Part shown: piece after piece, positions 1 through 47,963 of the stretch | Layout: every line of letters begins with the position of its first letter | How positions within the stretch are numbered: position 1 is the stretch's first letter | NCBI RefSeq assembly: GCF_026151205.1 | Contig: NC_087084.1 | Coordinates: forward strand, 13,729,453 to 13,793,452 | Source of the DNA: Bolinopsis microptera | Lineage: Eukaryota; Ctenophora; Tentaculata; Lobata; Bolinopsidae | Reading direction: 5' to 3' | Length of the DNA stretch: 64,000 nt | Translations under genes and position numbers: made by a program | The notes under the pieces: model-generated | What the model saw: only the letters and a program-made list of their open reading frames with translations | The model's database searches: none | Told to the model about the DNA's origin: nothing

Positions 1-3000
1 CGTACCATCTGAAGATGATAAAACACGTACCATCTGAAGATGATAAAACACGTACCATCTGAAGATGATAAAACACGTACCATCTGAAGATGATAAAACA
101 CGTACCATCTTAAGATGATAAAACACGTACCATCTGAAGATGATAAAACACGTACCATCTGAAGATGATAAAACACGTACCATCTGAAGATGATAAAACA
201 CGTACCATCTGAAGATGATAAAACACGTACCATCTGAAGATGATAAAACACGTACCATCTTAAGATGATAAAACACGTACCATCTGAAGAGGATAAAACA
301 CGTACCATCTGAAGATGATAAAACACGTACCATCTGAAGATGATAAAACACGTACCATCTGAAGATGATAAAACACGTACCATGTGAAGATGATAAAACA
401 CGTACCATGTGAAGATGATAAAACACGTACCATGTGAAGATGATAAAACACGTACCATCTTAAGATGATAAAACACGTACCATCTGAAGATGATAAAACA
501 CGTACCATCTGAAGATGATAAAACACGTACCATCTGAAGATGATAAAACACGTACCATCTGAAGATGATAAAACACGTACCATGTGAAGATGATAAAACA
601 CGTACCATGTGAAGATGATAAAACACGTACCATCTGAAAATGATAAAACACGTACCATCTGAAGATGATAAAACACGTACCATCTGAAGATGATAAAACA
701 CGTACCATCTTAAGATGATAAAACACGTACCATCTGAAGATGATAAAACACGTACCATCTTAAGATGATAAAACACGTACCATCTGAAGATGATAAAACA
801 CGTACCATCTGAAGATGATAAAACACGTACCATCTGAAGATGATAAAACACGTACCATCTGAAGATGATAAAACACGTACCATCTGAAGATGATAAAACA
901 CGTACCATCTTAAGATGATAAAACACGTACCATCTGAAGATGATAAAACACGTACCATCTGAAGATGATAAAACACGTACCATCTGAAGATGATAAAACA
1001 CGTACCATCTTAAGATGATAAAACACGTACCATCTGAAGAGGATAAAACACGTACCATCTGAAGATGATAAAACACGTACCATCTGAAGACGATAAAACA
1101 CGTACCATCTGAAGATGATAAAACACGTACCATCTGAAAATGATAAAACACGTACCATCTGAAGATGATAAAACACGTACCATCTGAAGATGATAAAACA
1201 CGTACCATCTTAAGATGATAAAACACGTACCATCTGAAGATGATAAAACACGTACCATCTGAAGATGATAAAACACGTACCATGTGAAGATGATAAAACA
1301 CGTACCATGTGAAGATGATAAAACACGTACCATCTTAAGATGATAAAACACGTACCATCTTAAGATGATAAAACACGTACCATCTGAAGATGATAAAACA
1401 CGTACCATCTTAAGATGATAAAACACGTACCATCTGAAGATGATAAAACACGTACCATCTGAAGATGATAAAACACGTACCATGTGAAGATGATAAAACA
1501 CGTACCATCTGAAGATGATAAAACACGTACCATCTGAAGATGATAAAACACGTACCATCTGAAGATGATAAAACACGTACCATCTGAAGACGATAAAACA
1601 CGTACCATCTGAAGATGATAAAACACGTACCATCTGAAATGATAAAACACGTACCATCTGAAGATGATAAAACACGTACCATCTGAAGATGATAAAACAC
1701 GTACCATCTTAAGATGATAAAACACGTACCATCTGAAGATGATAAAACACGTACCATCTTAAGATGATAAAACACGTACCATCTGAAGATGATAAAACAC
1801 GTACCATCTGAAGATGATAAAACACGTACCATCTGAAGATGATAAAACACGTACCATCTTAAGATGATAAAACACGTACCATCTGAAGATGATAAAACAC
1901 GTACCATCTTAAGATGATAAAACACGTACCATCTGAAGATGATAAAACACGTACCATCTGAAGATGATAAAACACGTACCATCTGAAGATGATAAAACAC
2001 GTACCATCTGAAGATGATAAAACACGTACCATGTGAAGATGATAAAACACGTACCATCTGAAGATGATAAAACACGTACCATCTGAAGATGATAAAACAC
2101 GTACCATCTGAAGATGATAAAACACGTACCATCTGAAGATGATAAAACACGTACCATCTGAAGATGATAAAACACGTACCATGTGAAGATGATAAAACAC
2201 GTACCATGTGAAGATGATAAAACACGTACCATGTGAAGATGATAAAACACGTACCATCTTAAGATGATAAAACACGTACCATCTGAAGAGGATAAAACAC
2301 GTACCATCTGAAGATGATAAAACACGTACCATCTGAAGATGATAAAACACGTACCATCTGAAGATGATAAAACACGTACCATCTGAAGATGATAAAACAC
2401 GTACCATCTGAAGATGATAAAACACGTACCATCTGAAGATGATAAAACACGTACCATCTGAAGATGATAAAACACGTACCATCTGAAGATGATAAAACAC
2501 GTACCATCTGAAGATGATAAAACACGTACCATCTGAAGATGATAAAACACGTACCATCTGAAGATGATAAAACACGTACCATCTGAAGATGATAAAACAC
2601 GTACCATCTGAAGATGATAAAACACGTACCATGTGAAGATGATAAAACACGTACCATCTGAAGATGATAAAACACGTACCATCTGAAGATGATAAAACAC
2701 GTACCATCTGAAGATGATAAAACACGTACCATCTGAAGATGATAAAACACGTACCATCTGAAGATGATAAAACACGTACCATGTGAAGATGATAAAACAC
2801 GTACCATGTGAAGATGATAAAACACGTACCATCTGAAGATGATAAAACACGTACCATCTGAAGATGATAAAACACGTACCATCTGAAGATGATAAAACAC
2901 GTACCATCTGAAGATGATAAAACACGTACCATCTGAAGATGATAAAACACGTACCATCTGAAGATGATAAAACACGTACCATGTGAAGATGATAAAACAC

Positions 3001-3219
3001 GTACCATGTGAAGATGATAAAACACGTACCATGTGAAGAGGATAAAACACGTACCATCTGAAGATGATAAAACACGTACCATCTGAAGATGATAAAACAC
3101 GTACCATCTGAAGATGATAAAACACGTACCATGTGAAGATGATAAAACACGTACCATGTGAAGATGATAAAACACGTACCATGTGAAGAGGATAAAACAC
3201 GTACCATCTGAAGATGATG
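1..3219 (-). repeat. 25-bp satellite seeded on the exon-16 splice donor (about 129 units)
   Basis: Nearly perfect 25-bp tandem repeat touching the window edge. On the minus strand each unit is GTACGTGTTTT followed by ATCATCTTCAGATG; the second part is identical to the last 14 bases of USP9X exon 16, so each unit boundary reproduces the junction CAGATG|GTACGT. Common variants change CTTCAG to CTTAAG or CTTCACATG. One unit near 1,637 is a base short. The repeat has no stop codon in any minus frame, which explains long artefactual ORFs. Confidence 0.97.
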
Positions 3220-3318
3220 TCCATGTCGGAAGGATATATTCTGTGAGTAGTCAAGTGTTTCCAGAGTTGCATAGCATGGGTAAGTGACAAATAACAGTTG
3301 GCGTGTTTCAATGTGAAC
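3205..3318 (-). CDS. USP9X: USP9X exon 16 (last exon in window)
   Basis: 114 bp, acceptor TTAAACAG, donor GTACGT, phase 2 to 2. Encodes [20 protein letters not shown] and DMDIIFRW, matching family LLKDGQLWLCAPQAKQIWK and ACFKW. Its last 14 bases plus the donor and following intron bases are the 25-bp satellite unit filling the left edge. Confidence 0.87.
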
Positions 3319-6300
3319 CTGTTTAAATGTGTTAGATAATTAGATAATTAGATAATTAGATAATCAGCCAATTAAACAATTCTATAATTATAAAGACTTT
3401 AACAGTCAATTCAAATCAAATTTCGAATAAACTTTATTTGAAATTTCCAAGAGATTTCTCAGTGTTATCACGAGTTACTGTAAATGATCGATAAATTATA
3501 AAGTTTTCATTGCTTAAAACATTAATAATAATAAATTTAGATATTCAATTAATCGACTCCACCTGATGAACTCCAGCCGTTCGTTAAGCTCGTCAACGTG
3601 GGAATAGCATCTAGTAGAAAGTACTTCAGTCGGCTTACAAGTCTCAATATCCGGCAATTTCTTCGTCTGGAGAAACATTTAAAATTAGTCTCAAATTGAA
3701 ATTAGTCTCAAATTGCTGGATAAGCAACCACGCAATGATGATGTTTGATGTTCTGAATAAAAATACGGCGTGTCTCAAGGCAGTATCATAGGACTTGTAC
3801 AATATGTTTAATAAGTTTAATATGTAAACTGTAAAGTAATATGTAACATAGGGAGGGGGGTGACATGTCCGCCTATGTCCGCCAATGTCCGCCTATGTCC
3901 TGCCAGTGCTGGGTTTTCACCTTCTGAAACCCAGCACTGACAGGCCTTCCCCTAATTTTGTTCATGTTTCATGCTACCCTGATCATTATTAGCCGAAAAT
4001 ATTTGTTCGGTTTTCGAAGTCCGCACCTACCCTTCGATATACGATTTTGGACTCGAGATCGAGGGTTCCCCCCTTGTAATGCGATCTCGGAAATACCCCT
4101 TAAAACAGGGTCTACAGGGTGAACCACAAAAAATTTGACTTTTAAAAAAATTATCACCCGCCTCATTAGACAATTTTAACAAAATTTAGCAAAATTTAGC
4201 AAAATTTAACAAAATTTTGCTGTCCACTTTTGTCCGCCTATGCCCGCCTATGCCCGGTCCTGTCCTGTTCTTTTTGGATTCTATGAGACAAGCGGACATA
4301 TACGGACGTTTCACCCCCAAGAAAATAATTATGTAAGATATGTAATGTGTCTCAAGTCAGTATAATGTGACCATCTCACCTGGTCCAGGTAGAACTCTAT
4401 GTCAGTATAATGTGACCATATCACCTGGTCCAGGTAGAACTCTATGTCAGTATAATGTGACCATATCACCTGGTCCAGGTAGAACTCTATGTCAGTATAA
4501 TGTGACCATCTCACCTGGTCCAGGTAGAACTCTATGTCAGTATAATGTGACCATATCACCTGGTCCAGGTAGAACTCTATGTCAGTATAATGTGACCATC
4601 TCACCTGGTCCAGGTAGAACTCTATGTCAGTATAATGTGACCATATCACCTGGTCCAGGTAGAACTCTATGTCAGTATAATGTGACCATCTCACCTGGTC
4701 CAGGTAGAACTCTATGTCAGTATAATGTGACCATCTCACCTGGTCCAGGTAGAACTCTATGTCAGTATAATGTGACCATATCACCTGGTCCAGGTAGAAC
4801 TCTATGTCAGTATAATGTGACCATCTCACCTGGTCCAGGTAGAACTCTATGTCAGTATAATGTGACCATCTCACCTGGTCCAGGTAGAACTCTATGTCAG
4901 TATAATGTGACCATCTCACCTGGTCCAGGTAGAAGCACTCTATGTCAGTATAATGTGACCATCTCACCTGGTCCAGGTAGAACTCTATGTCAGTATAATG
5001 TGACCATCTCACCTGGTCCAGGTAGAACTCTATGTCAGTATAATGTGACCATCTCACCTGGTCCAGGTAGAACTCTATGTCAGTATAATGTGACCATCTC
5101 ACCTGGTCCAGGTAGAACTCTATGTCAGTATAATGTGACCATCTCACCTGGTCCAGGTAGAACTCTATGTCAGTATAATGTGACCATCTCACCTGGTCCA
5201 GGTAGAACTCTATGTCAGTATAATGTGACCATCTCACCTGGTCCAGGTAGAACTCTATGTCAGTATAATGTGACCATCTCACCTGGTCCAGGTAGAACTC
5301 TATGTCAGTATAATGTGACCATCTCACCTGGTCCAGGTAGAACTCTATGTCAGTATAATGTGACCATCTCACCTGGTCCAGGTAGAACTCTATGTCAGTA
5401 TAATGTGACCATCTCACCTGGTCCAGGTAGAACTCTATGTCAGTATAATGTGACCATCTCACCTGGTCCAGGTAGAACTCTATGTCAGTATAATGACCAT
5501 CTCACCTGGTCCAGGTAGAACTCTATGTCAGTATAATGTGACCATCTCACCTGGTCCAGGTAGAACTCTATGTCAGTATAATGTGACCATCTCACCTGGT
5601 CCAGGTAGAACTCTATGTCAGTATAATGTGACCATCTCACCTGGTCCAGGTAGAACTCTATGTCAGTATAATGTGACCATCTCACCTGGTCCAGGTAGAA
5701 CTCTATGTCAGTATAATGTGACCATCTCACCTGGTCCAGGTAGAACTCTATGTCAGTATAATGTGACCATCTCACCTGGTCCAGGTAGAACTCTATGTCA
5801 GTATAATGTGACCATCTCACCTGGTCCAGGTAGAACTCTATGTCAGTATAATGTGACCATCTCACCTGGTCCAGGTAGAACTCTATGTCAGTATAATGTG
5901 ACCATATCACCTGGTCCAGGTAGAACTCTATGTCAGTATAATGTGACCATCTCACCTGGTCCAGGTAGAACTCTATGTCAGTATAATGTGACCATCTCAC
6001 CTGGTCCAGGTAGAACTCTATGTCAGTATAATGTGACCATCTCACCTGGTCCAGGTAGAACTCTATGTCAGTATAATGTGACCATCTCACCTGGTCCAGG
6101 TAGAACTCTATGTCAGTATAATGTGACCATCTCACCTGGTCCAGGTAGAACTCTATGTCAGTATAATGTGACCATCTCACCTGGTCCAGGTAGAACTCTA
6201 TGTCAGTATAATGTGACCATCTCACCTGGTCCAGGTAGAACTCTATGTCAGTATAATGTGACCATATCACCTGGTCCAGGTAGAACTCTATGTCAGTATA

Positions 6301-9300
6301 ATGTGACCATATCACCTGGTCCAGGTAGAACTCTATGTCAGTATAATGTGACCATCTCACCTGGTCCAGGTAGAACTCTATGTCAGTATAATGTGACCAT
6401 CTCACCTGGTCCAGGTAGAACTCTATGTCAGTATAATGTGACCATCTCACCTGGTCCAGGTAGAACTCTATGTCAGTATAATGTGACCATCTCACCTGGT
6501 CCAGGTAGAACTCTATGTCAGTATAATGTGACCATCTCACCTGGTCCAGGTAGAACTCTATGTCAGTATAATGTGACCATCTCACCTGGTCCAGGTAGAA
6601 CTCTATGTCAGTATAATGTGACCATATCACCTGGTCCAGGTAGAACTCTATGTCAGTATAATGTGACCATCTCACCTGGTCCAGGTAGAACTCTATGTCA
6701 GTATAATGTGACCATCTCACCTGGTCCAGGTAGAACTCTATGTCAGTATAATGTGACCATATCACCTGGTCCAGGTAGAACTCTATGTCAGTATAATGTG
6801 ACCATCTCACCTGGTCCAGGTAGAACTCTATGTCAGTATAATGTGACCATCTCACCTGGTCCAGGTAGAACTCTATGTCAGTATAATGTGACCATCTCAC
6901 CTGGTCCAGGTAGAACTCTATGTCAGTATAATGTGACCATCTCACCTGGTCCAGGTAGAACTCTATGTCAGTATAATGTGACCATCTCACCTGGTCCAGG
7001 TAGAACTCTATGTCAGTATAATGTGACCATCTCACCTGGTCCAGGTAGAACTCTATGTCAGTATAATGTGACCATCTCACCTGGTCCAGGTAGAACTCTA
7101 TGTCAGTATAATGTGACCATCTCACCTGGTCCAGGTAGAACTCTATGTCAGTATAATGTGACCATCTCACCTGGTCCAGGTAGAACTCTATGTCAGTATA
7201 ATGTGACCATCTCACCTGGTCCAGGTAGAACTCTATGTCAGTATAATGTGACCATCTCACCTGGTCCAGGTAGAACTCTATGTCAGTATAATGTGACCAT
7301 CTCACCTGGTCCAGGTAGAACTCTATGTCAGTATAATGTGACCATCTCACCTGGTCCAGGTAGAACTCTATGTCAGTATAATGTGACCATCTCACCTGGT
7401 CCAGGTAGAACTCTATGTCAGTATAATGTGACCATCTCACCTGGTCCAGGTAGAACTCTATGTCAGTATAATGTGACCATCTCACCTGGTCCAGGTAGAA
7501 CTCTATGTCAGTATAATGTGACCATCTCACCTGGTCCAGGTAGAACTCTATGTCAGTATAATGTGACCATCTCACCTGGTCCAGGTAGAACTCTATGTCA
7601 GTATAATGTGACCATCTCACCTGGTCCAGGTAGAACTCTATGTCAGTATAATGTGACCATCTCACCTGGTCCAGGTAGAACTCTATGTCAGTATAATGTG
7701 ACCATCTCACCTGGTCCAGGTAGAACTCTATGTCAGTATAATGTGACCATCTCACCTGGTCCAGGTAGAACTCTATGTCAGTATAATGTGACCATCTCAC
7801 CTGGTCCAGGTAGAACTCTATGTCAGTATAATGTGACCATCTCACCTGGTCCAGGTAGAACTCTATGTCAGTATAATGTGACCATCTCACCTGGTCCAGG
7901 TAGAACTCTATGTCAGTATAATGTGACCATCTCACCTGGTCCAGGTAGAACTCTATGTCAGTATAATGTGACCATCTCACCTGGTCCAGGTAGAACTCTA
8001 TGTCAGTATAATGTGACCATCTCACCTGGTCCAGGTAGAACTCTATGTCAGTATAATGTGACCATCTCACCTGGTCCAGGTAGAACTCTATGTCAGTATA
8101 ATGTGACCATCTCACCTGGTCCAGGTAGAACTCTATGTCAGTATAATGTGACCATCTCACCTGGTCCAGGTAGAACTCTATGTCAGTATAATGTGACCAT
8201 CTCACCTGGTCCAGGTAGAACTCTATGTCAGTATAATGTGACCATATCACCTGGTCCAGGTAGAACTCTATGTCAGTATAATGGGACCACTCCCCTGGCC
8301 GGGTAAACTCTATGAGTATAATTGACCATCTCACCGGGTCCAGGTAAACTCTATGCGGTATAATGTGACCATCTCCCCTGGTCCGGGAGAACTCAAATGT
8401 CAGTATAATGTGACCATATCACCGGGTCCGGTAAACTCAGTCATATAATGGACCACTCACCGGTCCGGGTAAACTCTTTTCAGTATAATGTGACCACTCA
8501 CCTGGTCCAGGAAACTCTATGCAGTTTTAATGTGACCATATCCCCGGGGGTCCATAGAACTCTATGTCGAAATGTGACCAATCCCCGGGGTCCAGGAGAA
8601 CTCTATTCGTAAAAGGACCAATCACCTGGTCCGGGTAAAAACTTTTGTCAGTATAAGTGACCATACACCGGGTCCAGGAAACCTATGTCAGTATAATTGA
8701 CCATATCACCGGGTCCAGGAAACTCATTCAGTATAATGGTCCACCACCTGTCCGTAGAACCTTTTCAGTAAAGGACCATCTCACCTGGTCCAGGTAGAAC
8801 TCTATGTCAGTATAATGTGACCATCTCACCTGGTCCAGGTAGAACTCTATGTCAGTATAATGTGACCATCTCACCTGGTCCAGGTAGAACTCTATGTCAG
8901 TATAATGTGACCATCTCACCTGGTCCAGGTAGAACTCTATGTCAGTATAATGTGACCATCTCACCTGGTCCAGGTAGAACTCTATGTCAGTATAATGTGA
9001 CCATCTCACCTGGTCCAGGTAGAACTCTATGTCAGTATAATGTGACCATCTCACCTGGTCCAGGTAGAACTCTATGTCAGTATAATGTGACCATATCACC
9101 TGGTCCAGGTAGAACTCTATGTCAGTATAATGTGACCATCTCACCTGGTCCAGGTAGAACTCTATGTCAGTATAATGTGACCATCTCACCTGGTCCAGGT
9201 AGAACTCTATGTCAGTATAATGTGACCATCTCACCTGGTCCAGGTAGAACTCTATGTCAGTATAATGTGACCATCTCACCTGGTCCAGGTAGAACTCTAT

Positions 9301-21022: not shown

Positions 21023-21053
<31 letters not shown>

Positions 21054-42000: not shown

Positions 42001-45000
42001 AATATTTTGAATATTTCCAAGAAATTAATTTTGGAAACACTAACTTGAGGGTTTTGTCAAGTTTCTCAACGTATTGTGGCAGGTGGAGGTAGTCGGTGAA
42101 CACAACGTTAAGAATCTTCTGATCTTTTAGCCAACATCCCAGGTCCTCGGAGGTAATACTGTCCGAGTCTTGGTTCTGTCTCCTTTAGGAGGGTTACTTA
42201 TTAGCTACTAATTGAAATGTTCACTGATTAGCTGCTAATTAAAACGTTTTAATGTGTTTGAGTATCAACTATCATGGATTAATGAGTCTCACAGAATCAA
42301 GTACGGATAGTGAAGAATGGGAAATGACGACAAGTCGTGAAATTGCGAAAATTTACGTGACGTCATCACAATTCTCACGTGACGTCATCACAATTCTCAC
42401 TCGACGTCATCACAATTCTCACGTGATGTCATCACAATTCTCACGCGACGTAATCAATTAATTGTGAAACGTGAAGCACAAACCGGTTAAAAAGGAAAGG
42501 AGTAATGATCCTGTTTAGTTCATTTAGCGCATTCATTTTCCCGTTGAAGCTGCTCGTTTTGATGAGTTTCAGTAAAAGATCCAAATGAAGAATTTCCACA
42601 CCTTGGACCAACTTCTTCCTGCAGCAAAAATTAATGATATTTGAGAAATAATATTAGATACTGTATAAGTTAAATCAAATAATATTTGACTGTGAAATAT
42701 TTCCATCATTTACATTAATCAAGTTATATGGGGGAGGGGCCCCCTGTATAGTTCTTGTATAAAGGCTACAAAACGAAAAAAATTGTAACACCAGTTATCC
42801 AACGAGGTCATCATTTCATCGAAACATCACGTGACGTCATCACAACATCACGTGACGTCATCACAACATCACGTGACGTCATCACAAAGCTTACTTGTCC
42901 TGGGGTGCCCGATGGAGTATCATCTTCAGTGTCTGTATCAGGCCGGAGAGAGTATCATTTCTTGTCTCCACTTTTGTCTCTTTCTTTAGCTGCTCGTCCG
43001 ACAGGTTGGAAACGTAATCTGAAGAATTGTATTGATTTACAATGGCAAAAGGGTTGTCAAAATTCCCGAAATCCCCTAAACATTTTAAAACAAATTAAAT
43101 AATATACAGATAGTTTAAGAAGGAATATACAGATGGTTTAAGAAGGAATATGGCGGTACTAACTTGTAACAATAAGGGTACAGGGTACTAGATACGTTTA
43201 AGAAGGAATATGGCGGTACTAACTTGTAACAATAAGGGTACAGGGTACTAGATACGTTTGCACGCAGGATGAGGTTAGCAGGTCAATACACAGACCAAAC
43301 GGCTTGAGATATGCTGATACTAGCTGAAAGTATAGTTGTTTTTACCTAATAATTATGCAAACTTAACTAACTGGTCATTTTAATTTTAATTTATTCAATT
43401 GGTAGTATAACTAGTGAGTAGTGACTACTGGAGTTTGATTTAAATTTTATGTAAATTTTTTAAATAACCAGATCTTACCTCTAAGGATGGATTAGCAAAA
43501 GCTTTGAACTGATCTAGAACATTCTGAAACCCTTCATCACTCCCGAAGTTGTTGATCAGGTCCACCAGCCATCCCTTCGGGACCCGGAAGTCAGTGGGAC
43601 GAGCGAAGATGTCAGCTCCGGGAATTTGGGACGAGGGTGGGACAGTTTTGCTGGGTTGGGAGGCGTTGTAGTGGTGAAACCTGTCATGGTGACGTCATTA
43701 AAATCAGGTAATTAATGGGTACGTGATATTCGGCCTAACACCAATCGTAGTGGTAGAACTTTATACATACAGCAACTATAATGGGATCATTTACGTCCTA
43801 AATATTTTCTTGGATATTATATAATATAAAATATCTTGATTAAATATCATAAAATAACTGATCGGATGGGAATCCACTACTTTTATCAACAAAGAATGGC
43901 ATTGATAATCTCAAATAACGACTAACTTGGATGTAGGGTTAAAAACGATGGCCATCAGTCTCAGAAGGGCTATATTTTCACTCCTCATCTTCACTGCCAT
44001 TAGTTTTACCAACAGTACTGAGTTATCAAATATGTAGCCCTGGATAGAGATTTTGTTACTACTACTTAGATGTATAGATGTTTAATTTCAATCTGAGGAG
44101 GTAAAATTCTCAGAATTTTTGTGCATTTTACATGAATAAATGATGAGCAGTAGGCCCAATCAAGAAAATAGAGTGCAGGAGAGTCCACAGAAGTGCATTA
44201 CCCTCTCAAACACACACCACCCCCCATCCCCCACCCCCAACAGATAGCTCTCAGCAACCTCACCTGAATTTCAGGAGTCCAGCTCCCCCCCCCCACAGAT
44301 AGCACTCAGCAACCTCACCTGAATTTCAGGAGTCCAGCTCCCCCCACCCCCCCCCCCAAATAGATAGCTCTCAGCAACCTTACCTGAATTTCAGGAGTCC
44401 AGCTCCCCCCACCCCCCCCCACCCCCCAACAGATAGCTCTCAGCAACCTTACCTGAATTTCAGGAGTCCAGCTCCCCCCACCCCCCCCCCCACCCCCAAC
44501 AGATAGCACTCAGCAACTTCACCCGAATTTCAGGAGTCCAGCTCCCCCACCCCCCCCCCCAACAGATAGCTCTCAGCAACCTCACCTGAATTTCAGGAGT
44601 CCAGCTCCCCCACCCCCAACAGATAGCTCTCAGCAACCTCACCTGAATTTCAGGAGTCCAGCTCCCCCACCCCCCAACAGATAGCTCTCAGCAACCTCAC
44701 CTGAATTTCAGGAGTCCAGCTCCCCCCACCCCCCAATAGATAGCTCTCAGCAACCTCACCTGAATTTCAGGAGTCCGGCTCCCCCCCACCCCCCAACAGA
44801 TAGCTCTCAGCAACCTCACCTGAATTTCAGGAGTCCAGCTCCCCCCACCCCCCAACAGATAGCTCTCAGCAACCTCACCTGAATTTCAGGAGTCCGGCTC
44901 CCCCCACCCCCCAACAGATAGCTCTCAGCAACCTCACCTGAATTTCAGGAGTCCAGCTCCCCCCACCCCCCAATCTCCCAATAGATAGCTCTCAGCAACC

Positions 45001-47963
45001 TCACCTGAATTTCAGGAGTCCAGCCCCCCCCCCCCCACAGATAGCACTCAGCAACCTCACCTGAATTTCAGGAGTCCAGCCCCCCCCCCCCCCCCCCCAC
45101 AGATAGCTCTCAGCAACCTCACCTGAATTTCAGGAGTCCAGCTCCCCCCCCCCCCACAGATAGCACTCAGCAACCTCACCTGAATTTCAGGAGTCCAGCC
45201 CCCCCCCCCCACAGATAGCTCTCAGCAACCTCACCTGAATTTCAGGAGTCCAGCTCCCCCCCCACAGATAGCTCTCAGCAACCTCACCTGAATTTCAGGA
45301 GTCCAGCTCCCCCCCCCCCCCCCACAGATAGCTCTCAGCAACCTCACCTGAATTTCAGGAGTCCAGCCCCCCCCCCCACAGATAGCACTCAGCAACCTCA
45401 CCTGAATTTCAGGAGTCCAGCTCCCCCCCCCCACAGATAGCACTCAGCAACCTCACCTGAATTTCAGGAGTCCAGCTCCCCCCCCCCCTAATAGATAGCT
45501 CTCAGCAACCTTACCTGAATTTCAGGAGTCCAGCTCCCCCCCCCCCCCCAAATAGATAGCTCTCAGCAACCTCACCTGAATTTCAGGAGTCCAGCTCCCC
45601 CCACCCCCCAACAGATAGCTCACAGCAACCTCACCTGAATTTCAGGAGTCCAGCTCCCCCACCCCCAACAGATAGCTCACAGCAACCTCACCTGAATTTC
45701 AGGAGTCCAGCTCCCCCCCCCCCCCAATAGATAGCTCTCAGCAACCTCACCTGAATTTTAGGAGTCCAGCTCCCCCCACCCCCCCCCCCCCCCCCCCCCC
45801 CCAACAGATAGCTCTCAGCAACCTCACCTGAATTTCAGGAGTCCAGCTCCCCCACCCCCAACAGATAGCTCTCAGCAACCTCACCTGAATTTCAGGAGTC
45901 CAGCTCCCCCCCCCCACCAATAGATAGCTCTCAGCAACCTCACCTGAATTTCAGGAGTCCAGCTCCCCCACCCCCAACAGATAGCTCTCAGCAACCTCAC
46001 CTGAATTTCAGGAGTCCAGCTCCCCCCCCCCCCCCCCAACAGATAGCTCTCAGCAACCTCACCTGAATTTCAGGAGTCCAGCTCCCCCACCCCCAACAGA
46101 TAGCTCTCAGCAACCTCACCTGAATTTCAGGAGTCCAGCTCCCCCCCCCCCCCCCCACCAATAGATAGCTCTCAGCAACCTCACCTGAATTTTAGGAGTC
46201 CAGCTCCCCCCACCCCCCAATAGATAGCTCTCAGCAACCTCACCTGAATTTCAGGAGTCCAGCTCCCCCCACCCCCCAATAGATAGCTCTCAGCAACCTC
46301 ACCTGAATTTTAGGAGTCCAGCTCCCCCCACCCCCCAATAGATAGCTCTCAGCAACCTCACCTGAATTTTAGGAGTCCAGCTCCCCCCACCCCCCAATAG
46401 ATAGCTCTCAGCAACCTCACCTGAATTTTAGGAGTCCAGCTCCCCCCCCCACCAATAGATAGCTCTCAGCAACCTCACCTGAATTTCAGGAGTCCAGCTG
46501 TTTACAGCACTGTCAGTGAGAACCTTAAGAAAGGAGTTAGATAGAGTTTCCTGGTAGAACTTTTGGCAGGCCTCGTTCTCGTCGTCTTGCTCCGATCTGG
46601 CCAGTTCAAGACAAGCTTTGAGAAGCCGCTCTAGCTCCTGTCCTGGTTCTACCGGTACTTTCCAGCCTGGACTGTTCACCATCCTGAGTTGTGGAGAGGG
46701 GTTAAAATGCAAAGTCAGCTTTATAATAATTAACATTATTATTAATTATCATTCTGGTGGATTCTAGACCTAGTATTAATTTCTATCAATTTGATGTACA
46801 TTTAGTTCTACAGTAGAATACTTGCCTGTTGATATATATAATATAAGTCAAACCTGCCACAGCTAGAGAGCCATGAAGGGGCAGCAAGCAAGGCCCGGAC
46901 CAAAACATACTGAGCCGACTGGGGTCTGGGTATAAAAAATATCAATTTATTGGGCAGTATGTTTTGGTCCGGGCAGTATTGGGCAGTATGTTTTGGTCCG
47001 GGCCTTGCTTGCTGGCCCTGCCATGGCTCTCTAGCTTGGGCATTTTTTCCTTATAAGGAAAAAATAGTTAACAACTCGCCTGTCGATAGTAGCTAGGTCA
47101 GCGTAAGGGAACTCATCAGAAGCTCCACTAACAGAGATACCAGAGTCAGTGGCGGGTACTGAAGAGGTGGTGTCAAACCCTGAGGTGGTGTCAAACCCTG
47201 AGGTGGTGTCAAACCCTGCTTGTGCTTCCGGGTCCACTTCCAGGTCTGGTCCTGAGAGTTTGAGGATCATGTATTACTGTAGGTAATTAAAATGAGTGGA
47301 ATTATGTGAATACCTACTGAGATAAGTGTTCCTTTAAACTGGTCACCAGTGGTCTTCAGTGGTCATTGAGTCTCAAGAGATTACTTTTGTGGTACCTAAA
47401 ACAATCTCAAAAGAACAACAATTATTTCTACATGACATCATTATAATACAATATAATACTTATCTGTCTTATTGAGATAATATGACAATCTAGAATCGCA
47501 CACCATACAAATTGTGTGTGATCCACAAAACTGACCATAAAGAACGTTGTTGAGTTGGAAGACATCGTGAGCAGCGTTACGTCTGGAGGGTCTTGCGGAG
47601 TAATTCTCAGGAAATACTGAATCTTCCTCGTAAAACTCCTGCTCAGGATAAAGGTATATAACACAATTTATCAATGAACTAATAAACCTGTAAAATAAAA
47701 TTAATAATAATGAAATAATAAACCTGTAAATTAACAAATCAATGAAATAATAAACCTGTAAATTAACAAATAAATGGACTAATAAACCTGTAAATTAACA
47801 AATAAATGAACTAATAAACCTGTTCGATAAGATCTGGTGAGTTGGAAGGGACAGGAATGTTCCTGCATTTCACAGCTGACTCAGCAGTTGTATCTGATAT
47901 TATCAGTTCGTCTAGGGATATGGAGTCGATGTCGGGGACGTCGGTCGTCTCTTGACCTAACAT
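3205..47963 (-). CDS. USP9X: USP9X / fat facets orthologue, N-terminal part (16 exons, continues off left edge)
   Basis: Minus-strand multi-exon gene. Exons in transcript order: 47963-47820, 47638-47536, 47251-47080, 46683-46479, 44039-43927, 43680-43479, 43323-43224, 43018-42895, 42618-42484, 42182-42045, 41898-41674, one of six exon-12 copies (nearest 41461-41313), 11318-11205, 10733-10630, 3666-3563, 3318-3205. All intron phases agree and the joined frame is open for 748 codons. The order of motifs follows vertebrate USP9X: SEACQ-like [66 protein letters not shown] and [11 protein letters not shown]. Known family role: a very large ubiquitin-specific protease that removes ubiquitin from substrates in trafficking, polarity and signalling. 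Only the helical N-terminal region lies here; the cysteine-protease domain must be left of base 1. One intron (about 30 kb) contains the opposite-strand lectin-like gene array. The start at 47963 is the first in-frame ATG of exon 1; upstream non-coding exons are possible. Confidence 0.9.
3334..3365. repeat. 10-bp microrepeat in intron 15
   Basis: Four copies of TAGATAATTA-type units. Simple AT-rich repeat, no further meaning seen. Confidence 0.7.
3563..3666 (-). CDS. USP9X: USP9X exon 15
   Basis: 104 bp, acceptor TTCTCCAG, donor GTGGAG, phase 0 to 2. Encodes [20 protein letters not shown] then [15 protein letters not shown], matching family YSHVQEVQERLNFLR. Intron to exon 16 is only about 240 bp. 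Confidence 0.92.
3722..3760 (-). repeat. fragment copy of USP9X exon 13
   Basis: About 38 bp match the middle of exon 13 (11245-11283) with three or four mismatches, including AAGCAACCACGCAATGATG on the plus strand. It has no splice sites and lies in the intron between exons 14 and 15. A relic of an exon duplication. Confidence 0.7.
3856..4318. mobile_element. MITE-like element with GGGGGTGA termini
   Basis: Ends are inverted: GGGGGTGACATGTCCG at the left and CGGACGTTTCACCCCC at the right. Contains tandem TGTCCGCCTA-type motifs, a small hairpin (GTGCTGGGTTT with its complement, 3908-3940) and, at about 3,960-4,110, an inverted segment also found in the hAT element at 23.98-24.49 kb. No target duplication is clear and no transposase is visible. 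Confidence 0.55.
4345..10650 (-). repeat. 45-bp satellite seeded on the exon-14 splice donor (about 140 units)
   Basis: About 87 clean units at 4345-8282, a degraded block at 8283-8775 and about 42 clean units at 8776-10650. On the minus strand the unit starts GTGAGATGGTCACATTATAC and ends GAGTTCTACCTGGACCAG, identical to the end of USP9X exon 14, so each boundary reads CAG|GTGAGA. The frequent variant ATATCAC (plus strand) turns the donor into GTGATA. The unit is 15 codons, open on both strands, so read-through would add ([15 protein letters not shown])n. Two clean-region units differ in length (+3 near 4,933, -2 near 5,491). Confidence 0.97.
8283..8775. repeat. degraded block inside the 45-bp array
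   Basis: About eleven units with many single-base insertions, deletions and homopolymer differences, bounded on both sides by near-perfect copies. The error pattern resembles unpolished long-read consensus more than biological decay, so array length here is uncertain. Confidence 0.7.
10630..10733 (-). CDS. USP9X: USP9X exon 14
   Basis: 104 bp, acceptor AATTACAG, donor CAG|GTGAGA, phase 1 to 0. Encodes [35 protein letters not shown], matching family YRHDLINQLQHNHALVTLV. Its last 24 bases and the first 21 intron bases form the 45-bp satellite unit that follows. Confidence 0.87.
10734..11204. other. USP9X intron 13
   Basis: 470 bp of AT-rich DNA between exons 14 and 13. The 66-codon frame at 10920-11120 has no recognisable content. 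Nothing else seen. Confidence 0.6.
11205..11318 (-). CDS. USP9X: USP9X exon 13
   Basis: 114 bp, acceptor TATATCAG, donor GTCAGT, phase 1 to 1. Encodes [33 protein letters not shown], matching family DRDTQKIQWIDRFIEELR and PALKQIKEICSLF. It joins exon 12 in frame (SH-DKDKQ). Confidence 0.92.
11546..11788 (+). other. 80-codon basic open frame, probable mobile-element relic
   Basis: Encodes a basic stretch ([17 protein letters not shown]) and is preceded by AGCTACAGTCAAGAAATATGG, which recurs in altered form near 30,095 and 38,045 upstream of units 5 and 6. I do not recognise a domain. Recurrence in spacers suggests a dispersed repeat rather than a gene. Confidence 0.3.
12040..12222 (+). mobile_element. 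LINE reverse-transcriptase C-terminal remnant
   Basis: Reads [20 protein letters not shown] and [16 protein letters not shown] before a stop. The pattern GPKIWNELP...FK..LKT is the usual C-terminal tail of CR1/L2-type LINE ORF2. Only this tail is present. Confidence 0.6.
13212..14898 (+). pseudogene. Lectin-like membrane protein, unit 1 (tail frameshifted)
   Basis: Exons 13212-13416, 14114-14233 and 14390-14898, phases 1 and 1. Exon 1 gives a signal peptide ([20 protein letters not shown]) and a short IGCYKRN region; exons 2 and 3 give the lectin-like domain ([26 protein letters not shown]). Compared with the other units a net deletion of about 25 bp follows GCMYDR, so the frame leaves the normal one, passes a hydrophobic stretch ([12 protein letters not shown]) and reads the tail repeats out of frame as a Pro/Gln-rich sequence stopping at 14898. 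The usual tail with PPSYNDV survives only in the +2 frame (to 14930). A decaying copy, or one with a new tail; expression would decide. Confidence 0.65.
13560..14090 (-). mobile_element. LINE ORF2 C-terminal remnant in intron 1 of unit 1
   Basis: Minus-strand reading [13 protein letters not shown] and [20 protein letters not shown] matches the C-terminus of LINE reverse transcriptases (the RMRLAGH...YVDTL.EDTG pattern). Bordered by a run of about 30 C. Homologous remnants sit at the same place in units 3 and 6 and partly in unit 5, so the insertion predates the duplications. Confidence 0.7.
15119..15252 (-). CDS. USP9X: USP9X exon 12, copy 1 (15-bp in-frame deletion)
   Basis: 134 bp: splice sites and phases are as in the other copies, but 15 bp are missing, which removes five residues (VISDK) without breaking the frame (KEGVLQVLW). 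It is the copy nearest exon 13. A decaying passenger or a variant exon. Confidence 0.5.
15391..15685. mobile_element. Hairpin element with nearly perfect arms
   Basis: An inverted repeat of about 145 bp per arm with almost no loop, centred near 15,538; ends read GATATCTGGATATTATCC and its complement. The flanking AGAAACAGTAC occurs on both sides (about 15,331-15,341 and 15,685-15,695), as a target duplication would, leaving about 50 bp of extra sequence at the left. Other units lack the insertion. Confidence 0.75.
15700..16993. other. Spacer between units 1 and 2
   Basis: AT-rich spacer shared with other units, including a decayed copy of the 74-codon frame seen intact at 19756-19980. The 60-70 bp before each lectin-like ATG are strongly conserved between units (AACGTCTGTAGGGAT just before ATG) and may hold promoter or 5' UTR. 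No gene seen. Confidence 0.6.
16994..18729 (+). CDS. Lectin-like single-pass membrane protein, unit 2
   Basis: Exons 16994-17204, 17497-17616 and 17771-18729, joined length 1290 bp, 429 residues. Residues 1-20 form a signal peptide; 21-70 contain YIGCYKHN and glycosylation sites (NFTT). About 80-158 resemble the galactose/rhamnose-binding lectin (SUEL) domain: [42 protein letters not shown]. The classical YGR and DPC sugar-contact motifs are not kept. A membrane helix ([19 protein letters not shown]) follows, then a basic stop-transfer region, a 9-residue repeat (TGGTHSSPA, about nine copies) and two PPSYNDV motifs. PPxY motifs bind WW domains of NEDD4-type ubiquitin ligases. The exon 1 donor is AAA|GTTCGT rather than AAG, so splicing may be weaker. 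Function unknown; a surface receptor or adhesion molecule is plausible. Confidence 0.85.
18918..19066 (-). CDS. USP9X: USP9X exon 12, copy 2
   Basis: 149 bp with intact acceptor, donor and frame, encoding the same peptide as copies 5 and 6. Lies downstream of lectin-like unit 2 on the opposite strand. Confidence 0.6.
19756..19980 (+). other. 74-codon frame repeated in unit spacers
   Basis: Encodes [20 protein letters not shown] through [19 protein letters not shown]. Decayed copies occur near 12,335-12,540, 16,265-16,380 and 23,650-23,807 with 25,457-25,516 (split by the hAT element). No domain recognised; it may be a mobile-element relic carried in the duplicated unit. Confidence 0.35.
20649..22629 (+). 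CDS. Lectin-like single-pass membrane protein, unit 3
   Basis: Exons 20649-20853, 21607-21726 and 21881-22629, 1074 bp, 357 residues. Signal peptide, IGCYKRN segment and lectin-like domain as in unit 2. The membrane region differs: a hydrophobic stretch ([20 protein letters not shown]) followed by Cys-rich repeats ([19 protein letters not shown]) that come from internal duplication of TATTGGTGCAATA-type DNA and suggest palmitoylation. The tail is short, with about five TGGTY-type repeats and two PPSYNDV motifs. Exons 1 and 2 and the last 100 bp of exon 3 are nearly identical to other units; the middle of exon 3 is where units diverge. Confidence 0.85.
21025..21520 (-). mobile_element. LINE ORF2 C-terminal remnant in intron 1 of unit 3
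   Basis: Same remnant as in unit 1, reading [20 protein letters not shown] and [13 protein letters not shown] on the minus strand, with a poly-C run of about 25 at one end. Confidence 0.7.
22819..22967 (-). CDS. USP9X: USP9X exon 12, copy 3
   Basis: 149 bp with intact acceptor, donor and frame. One amino-acid change relative to copy 6 (LAEDNKEG for LAEDDKEG). Lies downstream of lectin-like unit 3 on the opposite strand. Confidence 0.6.
23817..25448 (+). mobile_element. hAT-family DNA transposon derivative (1632 bp)
   Basis: Terminal inverted repeats TAGGAACCGACCGG and CCGGTCGGTTCCTA flanked by an exact 8-bp duplication ATCTAGAG (23809-23816 and 25449-25456), the hAT signature. Many CCGGAT/ATCCGG motifs lie near both ends and may be transposase sites. 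Inside is a 257-bp direct repeat (23978-24234 and 24235-24490) and a short BED-finger frame. The rest of the transposase is missing, so it is non-autonomous. It splits the spacer frame that is intact in unit 3, giving an empty-site comparison. Confidence 0.9.
24978..25112 (+). pseudogene. Truncated hAT transposase N-terminus (BED zinc finger)
   Basis: 44 codons: [17 protein letters not shown] then [20 protein letters not shown] and stop. The CxxC pair and the W/F spacing match the first half of a BED-type zinc finger. The frame stops before the histidine half, at a run of four T. Confidence 0.7.
26186..27255 (+). CDS. Lectin-like protein without cytoplasmic tail, unit 4
   Basis: Exons 26186-26390, 26691-26810 and 26957-27255, 624 bp, 207 residues. 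Signal peptide and lectin-like domain are as in the other units. After the domain the protein reads [20 protein letters not shown], then [21 protein letters not shown] and stops three residues later. The repeats, the basic stop-transfer and the PPSYNDV tail are gone. A small-residue segment, short spacer and terminal hydrophobic stretch is the layout of a GPI-attachment signal. A LINE fragment begins right after the stop, so insertion may have truncated the tail. Confidence 0.8.
27283..27591 (+). mobile_element. Degenerate LINE reverse-transcriptase C-terminus
   Basis: Reads [20 protein letters not shown], then after a frameshift [19 protein letters not shown] and [13 protein letters not shown]. 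Pattern typical of CR1/L2-type ORF2 ends. Stops and frame changes show it is dead. Confidence 0.65.
27791..27935 (-). pseudogene. USP9X exon 12, copy 4 (broken)
   Basis: Recognisable copy of exon 12, but a deletion removes its 5' end and the acceptor: after CCTCTGC the sequence jumps to spacer DNA normally found about 100 bp further on. It cannot be spliced in as the other copies can. Confidence 0.8.
28688..29644 (-). mobile_element. 5'-truncated LINE copy with 7-bp target duplication
   Basis: Minus-strand element with a 3' (TTA)n tail at 28688-28705. Flanked by TATTTAT on both sides (28681-28687, 29645-29651); the unoccupied site is seen in the homologous spacer at 37,655-37,690. The open frame 29643-28961 gives the end of ORF2: [85 protein letters not shown]. 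This is the CR1/L2-type connection and C-terminal region after the catalytic domain. Open over its whole length, so a fairly young insertion. Confidence 0.88.
30601..34378. mobile_element. 3.8-kb foldback element inserted in exon 1 of unit 5
   Basis: Two inverted arms of about 1.17 kb (30601-31768 and 33203-34378) with only scattered differences, around a 1.4-kb centre. Ends read TAATCCTGTATCTGG and, inverted, TAATTAAGTATCTGG; the flanking target duplication is AAC (30598-30600 and 34379-34381), and a 3-bp duplication suits the PIF/Harbinger group. Arms contain matching 112-codon frames, not recognised as proteins. The centre has AGCTGGA-rich imperfect repeats (31.80-32.22 kb), a C run at 32,504-32,521 and AT-rich DNA. 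No transposase found. Confidence 0.85.
34500..34850. repeat. G-rich tract and LINE remnant in intron 1 of unit 5
   Basis: A G-rich tract (34,517-34,545) with possible quadruplex character, then a TA microsatellite and a shortened version of the LINE C-terminal remnant found in units 1, 3 and 6. Confidence 0.5.
36676..36824 (-). CDS. USP9X: USP9X exon 12, copy 5
   Basis: 149 bp, same acceptor (AATGTCAG), donor and phases as copy 6, with the same encoded peptide. It sits downstream of lectin-like unit 5 on the opposite strand. Either an alternative exon or a passenger of the segmental duplication; the intact frame does not decide which. Confidence 0.6.
38438..41124 (+). CDS. Lectin-like membrane protein, unit 6
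   Basis: Exons 38438-38642, 39789-39908 and 40055-41124, 1395 bp, 464 residues. Signal peptide, IGCYKRN region and lectin-like domain as in unit 2. Two hydrophobic Cys-rich stretches follow ([19 protein letters not shown] and [19 protein letters not shown]), so topology could be hairpin or single-pass with a palmitoylated segment. The tail is a run of about 17 repeats of type ATSGTYPPA, different in motif from units 2 and 5, then two PPSYNDV motifs. Exon 1 ends in VL instead of VQ. Complete and open, so a good candidate for a functional copy. Confidence 0.87.
39230..39716 (-). mobile_element. LINE ORF2 C-terminal remnant in intron 1 of unit 6
   Basis: The longest open copy of this remnant: [79 protein letters not shown] on the minus strand. 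It is the end of a LINE ORF2 (RMRLAGH/YVD.L family). Confidence 0.72.
41313..41461 (-). CDS. USP9X: USP9X exon 12, copy 6 (closest to exon 11)
   Basis: 149 bp, acceptor AATGTCAG, donor after CATG (GTGCTT), phase 2 to 1. Encodes [19 protein letters not shown] through [15 protein letters not shown], matching family LAEDDKDGVMAHKVLNLLW. Frame and splice sites are intact. It lies about 190 bp beyond the stop codon of lectin-like unit 6, in convergent orientation. Confidence 0.85.
41674..41898 (-). CDS. USP9X: USP9X exon 11
   Basis: 225 bp, acceptor AAACCTAG, donor GTTAGA, phase 2 to 2. Encodes [39 protein letters not shown] and KEKLLELMG, one of the best conserved stretches of the family. It borders the roughly 30-kb intron region that holds the nested lectin-like array. 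Confidence 0.95.
42045..42182 (-). CDS. USP9X: USP9X exon 10
   Basis: 138 bp, acceptor CTCCTAAAG, donor GTTAGT, phase 2 to 2. Encodes [20 protein letters not shown] and [17 protein letters not shown], matching family DSLHQPQYVEKLEKILR. Confidence 0.92.
42350..42450. repeat. Intronic repeats with CRE-like TGACGTCA motifs (intron 9)
   Basis: Four to five units of about 22 bp carrying ACGTGACGTCATCACAATTC-type sequence, with TGACGTCA palindromes and CACGTG boxes. They begin about 35 bp after the exon 9 donor. Could bind bZIP/bHLH factors or be a neutral minisatellite. Confidence 0.7.
42484..42618 (-). CDS. USP9X: USP9X exon 9
   Basis: 135 bp, acceptor GCTGCAG, donor GTTTGT, phase 2 to 2. Encodes [20 protein letters not shown] then [15 protein letters not shown], nearly identical to family [15 protein letters not shown]. 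The donor after AACCG was chosen because its phase joins exon 10 correctly. Confidence 0.9.
42824..42888. repeat. Three exact 21-bp units with E-box and CRE motifs (intron 8)
   Basis: Each unit contains CACGTGACGTCATCACAA. They start 7 bp after the exon 8 donor GTAAGC, on the downstream side of the junction, without copying the donor itself. Confidence 0.85.
42895..43018 (-). CDS. USP9X: USP9X exon 8
   Basis: 124 bp, acceptor TTCTTCAG, donor GTAAGC, phase 1 to 2. Encodes [20 protein letters not shown], matching the family [20 protein letters not shown]. The following intron begins with three tandem CACGTGACGTCA-containing units. Confidence 0.9.
43141..43260 (-). repeat. USP9X: Exact 60-bp tandem duplication across the exon-7 splice donor
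   Basis: 43141-43200 and 43201-43260 differ only in the last base. The unit contains the last 34 bases of exon 7, the donor GTTAGT and the first intron bases. The second donor lies at 43158-43163. Use of the second donor would run into TAG at once (ACA AGT TAG). Two shorter related pieces follow at 43,107-43,140. Confidence 0.95.
43224..43323 (-). CDS. USP9X: USP9X exon 7
   Basis: 100 bp, acceptor CTTTCAG, donor GTTAGT, phase 0 to 1. Encodes [20 protein letters not shown] and onward, matching the family IAALIKPFG segment. The last 34 bases and the donor are duplicated exactly 60 bp further along the transcript. Confidence 0.87.
43479..43680 (-). CDS. USP9X: USP9X exon 6
   Basis: 202 bp, acceptor CATGACAG, donor GTAAGA, phase 2 to 0. 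Encodes [31 protein letters not shown] and [25 protein letters not shown] is nearly invariant in USP9X proteins. Confidence 0.93.
43927..44039 (-). CDS. USP9X: USP9X exon 5
   Basis: 113 bp, acceptor CTATCCAG, donor GTTAGT, phase 0 to 2. Encodes [18 protein letters not shown] and [15 protein letters not shown], matching the family helices RLVELCVAKL and LLELLAMALNP. Confidence 0.9.
44240..46499 (-). repeat. USP9X: About 57-bp minisatellite seeded on the exon-4 splice donor (38 copies)
   Basis: Thirty-eight copies including exon 4 itself. On the minus strand each copy has AGCTGGACTCCTGAAATTCAG-type sequence (the last bases of exon 4), then GTGAGGTTGCTGAGAGCTAT and a G run of varied length. Every copy keeps CAG|GTGAGG apart from rare T-to-C or C-to-T changes. 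The variable C runs (plus strand) set copy length (about 50-73 bp). Confidence 0.97.
46479..46683 (-). CDS. USP9X: USP9X exon 4
   Basis: 205 bp, phase 2 to 0. Encodes [18 protein letters not shown] through [16 protein letters not shown] to [15 protein letters not shown], a clear match to the family segment around WVVPVLPKGELE and SEACQRFF. Donor is CAG|GTGAGG. Its last 21 bases plus the donor are the seed of the 44.2-46.5 kb array. Confidence 0.9.
46861..47036. mobile_element. Inverted-repeat element in USP9X intron 3
   Basis: Arms of about 53 bp, starting AGCTAGAGAGCCATG at the left and ending CATGGCTCTCTAGCT at the right, with a short centre that contains a partial extra copy of the right arm (TATGTTTTGGTCCGGGCAG). 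Small MITE-like hairpin. Confidence 0.75.
47080..47251 (-). CDS. USP9X: USP9X exon 3, with in-frame GFDTTS repeats and a GC donor
   Basis: 172 bp, phase 1 to 2. Encodes [13 protein letters not shown], three copies of GFDTTS (an 18-bp coding microrepeat), then [12 protein letters not shown], which corresponds to the vertebrate FPHTDLAKLDD stretch. The frame continues into exon 4 only if the donor is AG|GCGAGT, so this looks like a GC-AG intron. Confidence 0.8.
47536..47638 (-). CDS. USP9X: USP9X exon 2
   Basis: Acceptor CTGAGCAG, 103 bp, phase 0 to 1, donor GTCAGT. Encodes [18 protein letters not shown] and onward. Divergent N-terminal region, supported by matching phases on both sides. Confidence 0.65.
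47672..47820 (-). repeat. USP9X: 32-bp repeat seeded on the exon-1 splice donor (5 AG|GT junctions)
   Basis: Starting at the exon 1 donor, the intron repeats a unit that begins GTTTATTAGTTCATTTATT and ends GTTAATTTACAG. AG|GT junctions fall at 47820, 47788, 47756, 47724 and 47688. Each unit therefore begins like a donor and ends like an acceptor. Confidence 0.9.
47820..47963 (-). CDS. USP9X: USP9X exon 1 (start codon exon)
   Basis: Starts with ATG at 47963-47961 and encodes 48 residues beginning [16 protein letters not shown], acidic and probably disordered. It ends GAACAG and is followed by a weak donor GTTTATTAG, phase 0. The family is poorly conserved here, so assignment rests on frame continuity into the next exons. 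A 32-bp repeat array starts exactly at this donor. Confidence 0.65.

Follow-up and report, generated by a model that had tools for sequence, protein, structure and literature searches.

Why should tandem repeats in several introns of one gene begin at the very end of an exon? We met this question in a 64,000-nt stretch of contig C13 (NC_087084.1) of the ctenophore Bolinopsis microptera (hereafter the window), whose genome is available as a wtdbg assembly polished with Illumina reads (PMC10232365). At E ≤ 1e-20, the ligand-binding S2 half of a glutamate receptor encoded in this genome had four PDB matches in all, three entries of ML032222a (from Mnemiopsis) and 4zdm (from Pleurobrachia); a search for COX1 gave no hit. 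A preliminary description of this DNA had claimed that arrays after USP9X exons 1, 4, 14 and 16 and a duplication after exon 7 repeat the last exon bases together with the splice donor, that they arose independently and more often than chance allows, and that they reflect either a recurrent process amplifying donors or selection retaining them. It had also cited the known idea that tandem duplication of AGGT-containing DNA can create introns.

The minus strand of the window carries the 5′ part of USP9X, comprising exons 1–16 and 15 introns. Two peptides of the gene had PDB matches to human USP9X (FAF-X): both hit 7yxx, and one of them also hit 5wch. Placing junctions by homology and splice consensus, we located 40 donors and 39 acceptors among 42 numbered exons; numbers above 32 are provisional, exons apparently being absent between 32 and 33, the acceptors of exons 34 and 40 and the donor of exon 40 were left unplaced, and the acceptor of exon 24 is a guess that breaks the frame. 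When exons 1–23 were spliced at the first donor of every array, they yielded an unbroken frame of 1,014 aa that aligned to human USP9X/FAF-X (7yxx) with an E-value of 1.3e-202; the alignment passes over junctions 4/5, 7/8 and 16/17 without a gap and has short gaps close to 14/15. The exon ends are thus as initially proposed, with one qualification: exon 1 lies outside the 7yxx alignment, its end being supported by the open frame, and the exonic part of its array is small (ACAG, 4 nt). Exons 2 (47536..47638) and 3 (47080..47251), both on the minus strand, follow from the gene model and the spliced frame. Within exon 3 (window 47080–47251) there is an in-frame 18-bp coding repeat (GFDTTS three times), and its donor looks like a GC-AG site (CAG|GCGAGT). 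Exon 12 has six occurrences with nearly the same peptide (window 41461, 36847, 27935, 22969, 19087 and 15252, minus strand), one of them without a clear acceptor and one with a 15-nt in-frame deletion.

Using Tandem Repeats Finder (TRF) and inspection of the sequence, we found all five arrays where they had been described, on the minus strand, each beginning in an exon end and having that exon end plus the donor as its unit. Exon 1 (47820..47963 from the ATG; donor AACAG|GTTTAT; open spliced frame) is followed by 4.6 copies of a 32-bp unit (47673..47823), which start 4 nt before the donor and occupy most of the 181-bp intron 1. The other four exons are supported by both the spliced frame and the 7yxx alignment. 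At exon 4 (46479..46683; TTCAG|GTGAGG), about 38 units of 57–59 bp begin 21 nt before the donor (44227..46499), their G-rich intronic half being variable in length. Exon 7 (43224..43323; TTACAA|GTTAGT) bears a 60-bp duplication (2.1 copies; 43136..43259) that starts 36 nt before the donor, with a 4-bp overlap at the joint. The array at exon 14 (10630..10733; GACCAG|GTGAGA) holds 141 copies of a 45-bp unit, starts 24 nt before the donor and makes up 6.3 kb of the 6.96-kb intron (4356..10653). Finally, the 25-bp array at exon 16 (3205..3318; CAGATG|GTACGT) starts 14 nt before the donor, fills positions 1..3218 and runs past the window edge to C13:13728362 (window coordinate −1090), with 172 copies in all. 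Outside the window, exon 31 carries a sixth donor array. Units therefore span the exon–intron boundary at six of the 40 located donors of the gene (exons 1, 4, 7, 14, 16 and 31; five within the window), and these six arrays start 4–36 nt inside the exon.

The 1,014-aa frame and its match to 7yxx also indicate that the frame-keeping donor is the first of each array. The next donor copy would shift the frame at exons 1, 4 and 16 or bring in a stop at exon 7. Exon 14 is the exception, as its 45-bp array is open for 641 codons and later donors would keep the frame too. We infer from these frames that the donor in use is the first copy. On the acceptor side, one of the 39 located USP9X acceptors (exon 39) is crossed by an array, and a 27-bp array halts 2–3 nt short of the exon 26 acceptor. 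Donors thus lead over acceptors as array sites but are not alone: an account confined to donors, as first put forward, is too narrow, since acceptors have been duplicated as well (exon 39, and exons 33 and 35 in the partial gene copy considered below).

The simplest alternative is that intronic minisatellites are abundant in this genome and that some reach exon ends by chance. Plain donor spanning fits this reading: 6 of the 14 arrays with a score ≥200 spanned a donor where 4.3 were expected (P = 0.23), as did 6 of the 50 with a score ≥50, against an expectation of 5.3. That spanning as such did not exceed chance reflects the long arrays, which take up a large share of the gene. A different result came from the position of array edges. 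When we counted arrays whose 5′ edge falls in the final 60 nt of an exon and which span the donor, 6 of 14 qualified at a score ≥200 compared to 0.46 expected (0 of 4,000 circular shifts), and 6 of 50 at a score ≥50 compared to 1.36 (P = 0.002). Arrays should be repelled by exons, yet these start within them, which also argues against chance. A stricter null, in which each array was moved inside the intron that holds it and could reach up to 60 nt into either exon (dropping 4 of the 50 arrays, which did not lie for the most part within an intron with both ends placed), still gave 6 of 14 versus 1.88 expected at a score ≥200 (P = 0.0035) and 6 of 23 versus 2.72 at ≥100 (P = 0.04), but at ≥50 the excess was not significant (6 of 46 versus 3.61, P = 0.13). 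There was one acceptor-edge array in each of these score sets. By a looser measure, 12 of the 46 arrays have their start between −60 and +30 relative to a donor, and 5 have their end between −30 and +60 relative to an acceptor. Depending on the null, the statistical support therefore ranges from strong to not significant.

Recurrence in other genes also speaks against chance overlap. We sampled 17 loci with a partial kinase match, chosen by homology and not by repeats, and located their exons through nine reference kinases. Three of 21 arrays started in an exon and spanned the donor (0.95 expected, P = 0.067, not significant for this sample by itself; 36 donors scored), and none of the 21 lay at an acceptor (1.03 expected; 38 acceptors scored). 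This scoring dropped donors below 1.0 and acceptors below 0, and took the first among donors within 2 bits, a rule fixed post hoc. The three cases are a 33-bp unit repeated five times after the exon ending in LHSNNVVYR (locus L034; Pfam kinase E-value 4.6e-6), a 53-bp unit repeated three times after the exon ending in DYLPPEMIDNVQ (L040; 5.1e-5) and a 54-bp unit repeated twice after the exon ending in EANIMRTC (L031; 0.0015); as the pieces are short, all three Pfam matches fall under the curated cut-off score. At three ubiquitin-hydrolase loci (L044, L047 and L048), which are outside the kinase count, we found no array with a strong donor. Loci L001–L008 and L049 contributed to the codon table only (open frames ≥450 nt) and were outside the array scans.

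A 157-kb flank of USP9X, taken for its position alone, contained 68 arrays with a score ≥80, a density that favours chance overlap. It also includes a neighbouring SMAD gene with two further donor cases, namely a 27-bp duplication (two copies) at an MH1 exon (Pfam E-value 3.2e-9) and a 22-bp array of 3.5 copies at an MH2 exon (8.2e-9). Of the 68 arrays, we inspected seven by eye, selected for their donor score, their length or their result in the exon-structure test. All seven start in a coding-looking exon end, the two in SMAD with proof by homology. The other five, with units of 59, 30, 35, 236 and 37 bp (the last with a weak donor), begin at the ends of open stretches; Pfam returned nothing for the exon pieces of the 59-, 35- and 236-bp arrays, and weak matches below the cut-offs for the piece at the 37-bp array. 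The 30-bp array consists of 77 copies after a coding-looking exon (C13:13869977-13872343, minus strand) and falls within an open stretch of 789 codons, so that later donors would add in-frame repeats.

Systematic scans of the flank were less decisive. A codon-bias test, weak in that its sensitivity was 42% on USP9X exon ends, most of them its own training set, showed no donor excess: coding flanks were on the donor and acceptor sides in 7 versus 6 of 53 arrays (score ≥100), 3 versus 4 of 30 (≥200) and 2 versus 2 of 18 (≥300). The exon-structure test, likewise weak, gave 3 donor-type arrays among 53 (1.4 expected) and no acceptor-type array (1.6 expected). Scoring repeat units with a matrix built from 21 USP9X donors outside junction-spanning arrays (5 of the 26 entered donors were skipped for a wrong offset), we found strong donors (score ≥5) on the sense strand of 9 of 100 arrays, compared to 1 on the antisense strand and 0.9 in shuffles; the set includes whole array families and both gene copies, so its entries are not all independent. 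Given the position of array edges in USP9X and the kinase and SMAD cases, we consider it unlikely that chance overlap explains the arrays.

Genome-wide word counts, made on both strands with arrays recognised by word match alone, point in the same direction. Three copies of CAGGTAAGT in 20–50-bp steps were matched 451 times and the reversed motif not once, and CAGGTRAGT in tandem gave 785 matches versus 7 for its reverse; single copies of CAGGTAAGT numbered 2,462 versus 1,212 reversed. A scrambled 9-mer of the same composition, GATGTCAAG, had 8 tandem matches (two arrays) and its own reverse 121, indicating that one long array can weigh heavily in such counts. For the acceptor-like TTTTCAGG we counted 323 tandem matches (19–49-bp steps) compared to 95 for its control, with 21,684 versus 8,934 singles. 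Expressed per 100 singles, the tandem matches amounted to 18 for the donor word, 1.5 for the acceptor-like word, 1.1 for its control and 0 for the reversed donor. Among the matches listed, there were at least 15 separate donor arrays on C1–C10, with many different periods. The excess of the donor word in tandem may thus be read as support for a wider phenomenon, not as proof of it. Overall, the proposal of a recurrent process gains ground from the donor arrays in three kinase loci and the SMAD gene and from the surplus of the donor 9-mer over its reverse, though one scramble was also high.

Recurrence of this kind might also arise if a transposon or satellite family carrying a donor had inserted at these sites. 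One 27-bp minisatellite family, which follows five of the six exon 12 occurrences, is indeed common to several places. The five junction units, however, are mutually unrelated in sequence and length and each matches its own exon, in agreement with the independent origins first proposed. Moreover, a search with one unit, the 45-bp core of exon 14, gave 108 genome matches, and 100 of the 100 listed fall in the exon 14 array itself; the many different periods of the donor arrays among the genome-wide matches are equally at odds with a single inserted family. We regard insertion as extremely improbable.

An inverted partial copy of USP9X allowed us to compare the same introns at two loci. Exons 17–42 of the main gene (C13:13708.7k-13728.0k) recur about 190 kb away (C13:13915.4k-13936.0k), and the two are 90.6% identical over 11,516 aligned columns. 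As the similarity begins only in intron 16, the partial copy is perhaps under weak constraint. The donor array at exon 31 is present in both, with 17 units in the main gene and 21 in the partial copy. Acceptor units differ far more: 1 in the main gene versus 78 in the partial copy at exon 33, 1 versus 6 at exon 35, and 122 versus 2 at exon 39. This comparison shows that copies diverged by about 10% can have very different numbers of units, and that introns can exist without junction arrays. With the paralogue pair, one and the same intron can thus be compared directly in its array-bearing and array-free states.

These data bear directly on whether tandem duplication of AGGT-bearing DNA made the introns themselves. 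Two details would suit such an origin, namely intron 1, which is almost all array with a unit that reads GT...AG, and the exon 35 array of the partial copy, in which the joint between units reads AG|GT. Against it, the arrays of introns 4, 7, 14, 16 and 31 end before the acceptors, which lie outside them, and the introns before exons 33 and 35 are present with a single unit in the sister copy. Wherever the aligned sequences permit a test, the introns appear to be older than their arrays, and the creation of these introns by duplication, which the preliminary description had brought in as a known idea, is very unlikely here, though less clearly so for intron 1.

Selection could instead keep many donors in place, for example as U1 snRNP platforms that counter premature 3′ end formation in long introns, or through exon definition. 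The GT is retained in 137 of 141 units at exon 14, in 172 of 172 at exon 16 and in 17 of 17 and 21 of 21 at exon 31 of the two gene copies, as this would predict. In the exon 39 acceptor array, the AG|GT-centred 8-mer ranked 2 of 22 for low divergence. Donor arrays are homogeneous (mean divergence 0.5–4.4%), but in the six donor-array alignments analysed alongside that acceptor array (the exon 33 acceptor array was left out) the donor core was not specially conserved: the donor 8-mer ranked 27 of 59 for low divergence at exon 4, 43 of 45 at exon 14, which is among the worst, 10 of 25 at exon 16, 17 of 35 and 23 of 35 in the two copies of exon 31, and 23 of 33 at L034. The introns are, furthermore, long largely through the arrays themselves. 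Selection for multiple donors is therefore quite improbable, and this half of the original interpretation finds no backing in the donor-array alignments.

We consider it probable that the arrays are mirage-type minisatellites in a ctenophore, arisen from short duplications straddling the junction of an existing intron. An exon-end segment (4–36 nt in USP9X) would be duplicated together with some intron. The first copy would retain the exon end and the donor, and the reading frame would survive if this first donor is used. Later copies would end up as intron sequence, free to be expanded, contracted and homogenised by slippage or unequal exchange. Donor-spanning duplications would be better tolerated than acceptor-spanning ones, because extra acceptors sit upstream of the true one. 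A survival filter of this kind (first donor intact, acceptor duplications more harmful) combined with ordinary slippage could account for the anatomy, and the arrays themselves would be nearly neutral. The observations that carry this reading are the anatomy of the arrays, the frame kept by the first donor, the unrelated units and the large copy-number gaps between diverged gene copies. A bolder version, possible but doubtful in our judgement, holds that 5′ splice sites of this ctenophore are mutational birthplaces of minisatellites genome-wide and, together with transposons, build a good share of long introns; RNA–DNA hybrids, nicking or stalled replication near bound U1 or polymerase at transcribed donors might then start the process.

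Ordinary intronic minisatellites have a period of 20–60 bp, homogenised units and a turnover in length. The ctenophore arrays resemble them in all three respects and differ in that the first unit holds coding sequence and a frame-keeping donor. Closer precedents come from amphioxus, where tandem repeats over exon–intron boundaries have been named mirages (PMC3087553). According to that paper, globin mirages include 3′ and 5′ cases with units of 150–160 bp, present in 6 and 3 copies in two haplotypes; Adh3, as cited there, has 10–72-bp units with somatic instability, and splicing is normal to judge by RT-PCR (PMC3087553). Mirage genes named in PMC3902484 are PGBD5, Adh and troponin C. As in these accounts, the USP9X arrays and partial copy feature minisatellite-like duplications whose units span the boundary, on the 5′ as well as the 3′ side, and many of these units retain AG/GT (PMC3087553, PMC3902484). 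Mirages also vary in length between alleles or in the soma; the length differences observed here are the large ones in unit number between two paralogous copies. Unlike the amphioxus mirages, they occur in a ctenophore rather than a cephalochordate, affect six donors of one gene with donors leading over acceptors, and reach up to 172 units and 6.3 kb, compared to 6 and 3 units in the globin mirage (PMC3087553). In the potato RdRp case, as presented in PMC4974935, tandem duplication near splice signals likewise produced copies carrying AG/GT; the introns studied here differ in that, where testable, they seem to pre-date the arrays, which lie inside them. A literature search by title and abstract, covering few subscription papers, returned nothing on splice-site tandem repeats or intronic minisatellites in ctenophores.

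The kind is therefore not new, since amphioxus mirages precede it. Its occurrence in this lineage is new, as are the numbers of copies, the repeated appearance in a single gene and the lead of donors. We would class the arrays as a ctenophore form of mirage minisatellites, large in scale and led by donors. The observation in USP9X was right and is unusually clean, and it raises two questions: how one donor is selected from a long row of identical copies, and whether tandem duplication and the growth of introns have hot spots at splice junctions.

Several minor features of the region were recorded along the way. Past the window edge, after the donor of exon 24, comes a degenerate series of CAGGTATT-like words (window coordinates −7342 to −7412) that may be the remains of a donor array. 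An 11-bp array of 49 copies (CAATCATGACG) occupies window 49719–50253, upstream of where USP9X starts. The word ACGTGACGTCA occurs inside several tandem arrays, at window 42355–42456 and 42816–42887 as well as in several flank arrays. Finally, TGACGTCA is strongly over-represented, with 178 occurrences compared to 8 for TGAGCTCA in 361 kb (both strands, so that a palindrome counts twice).
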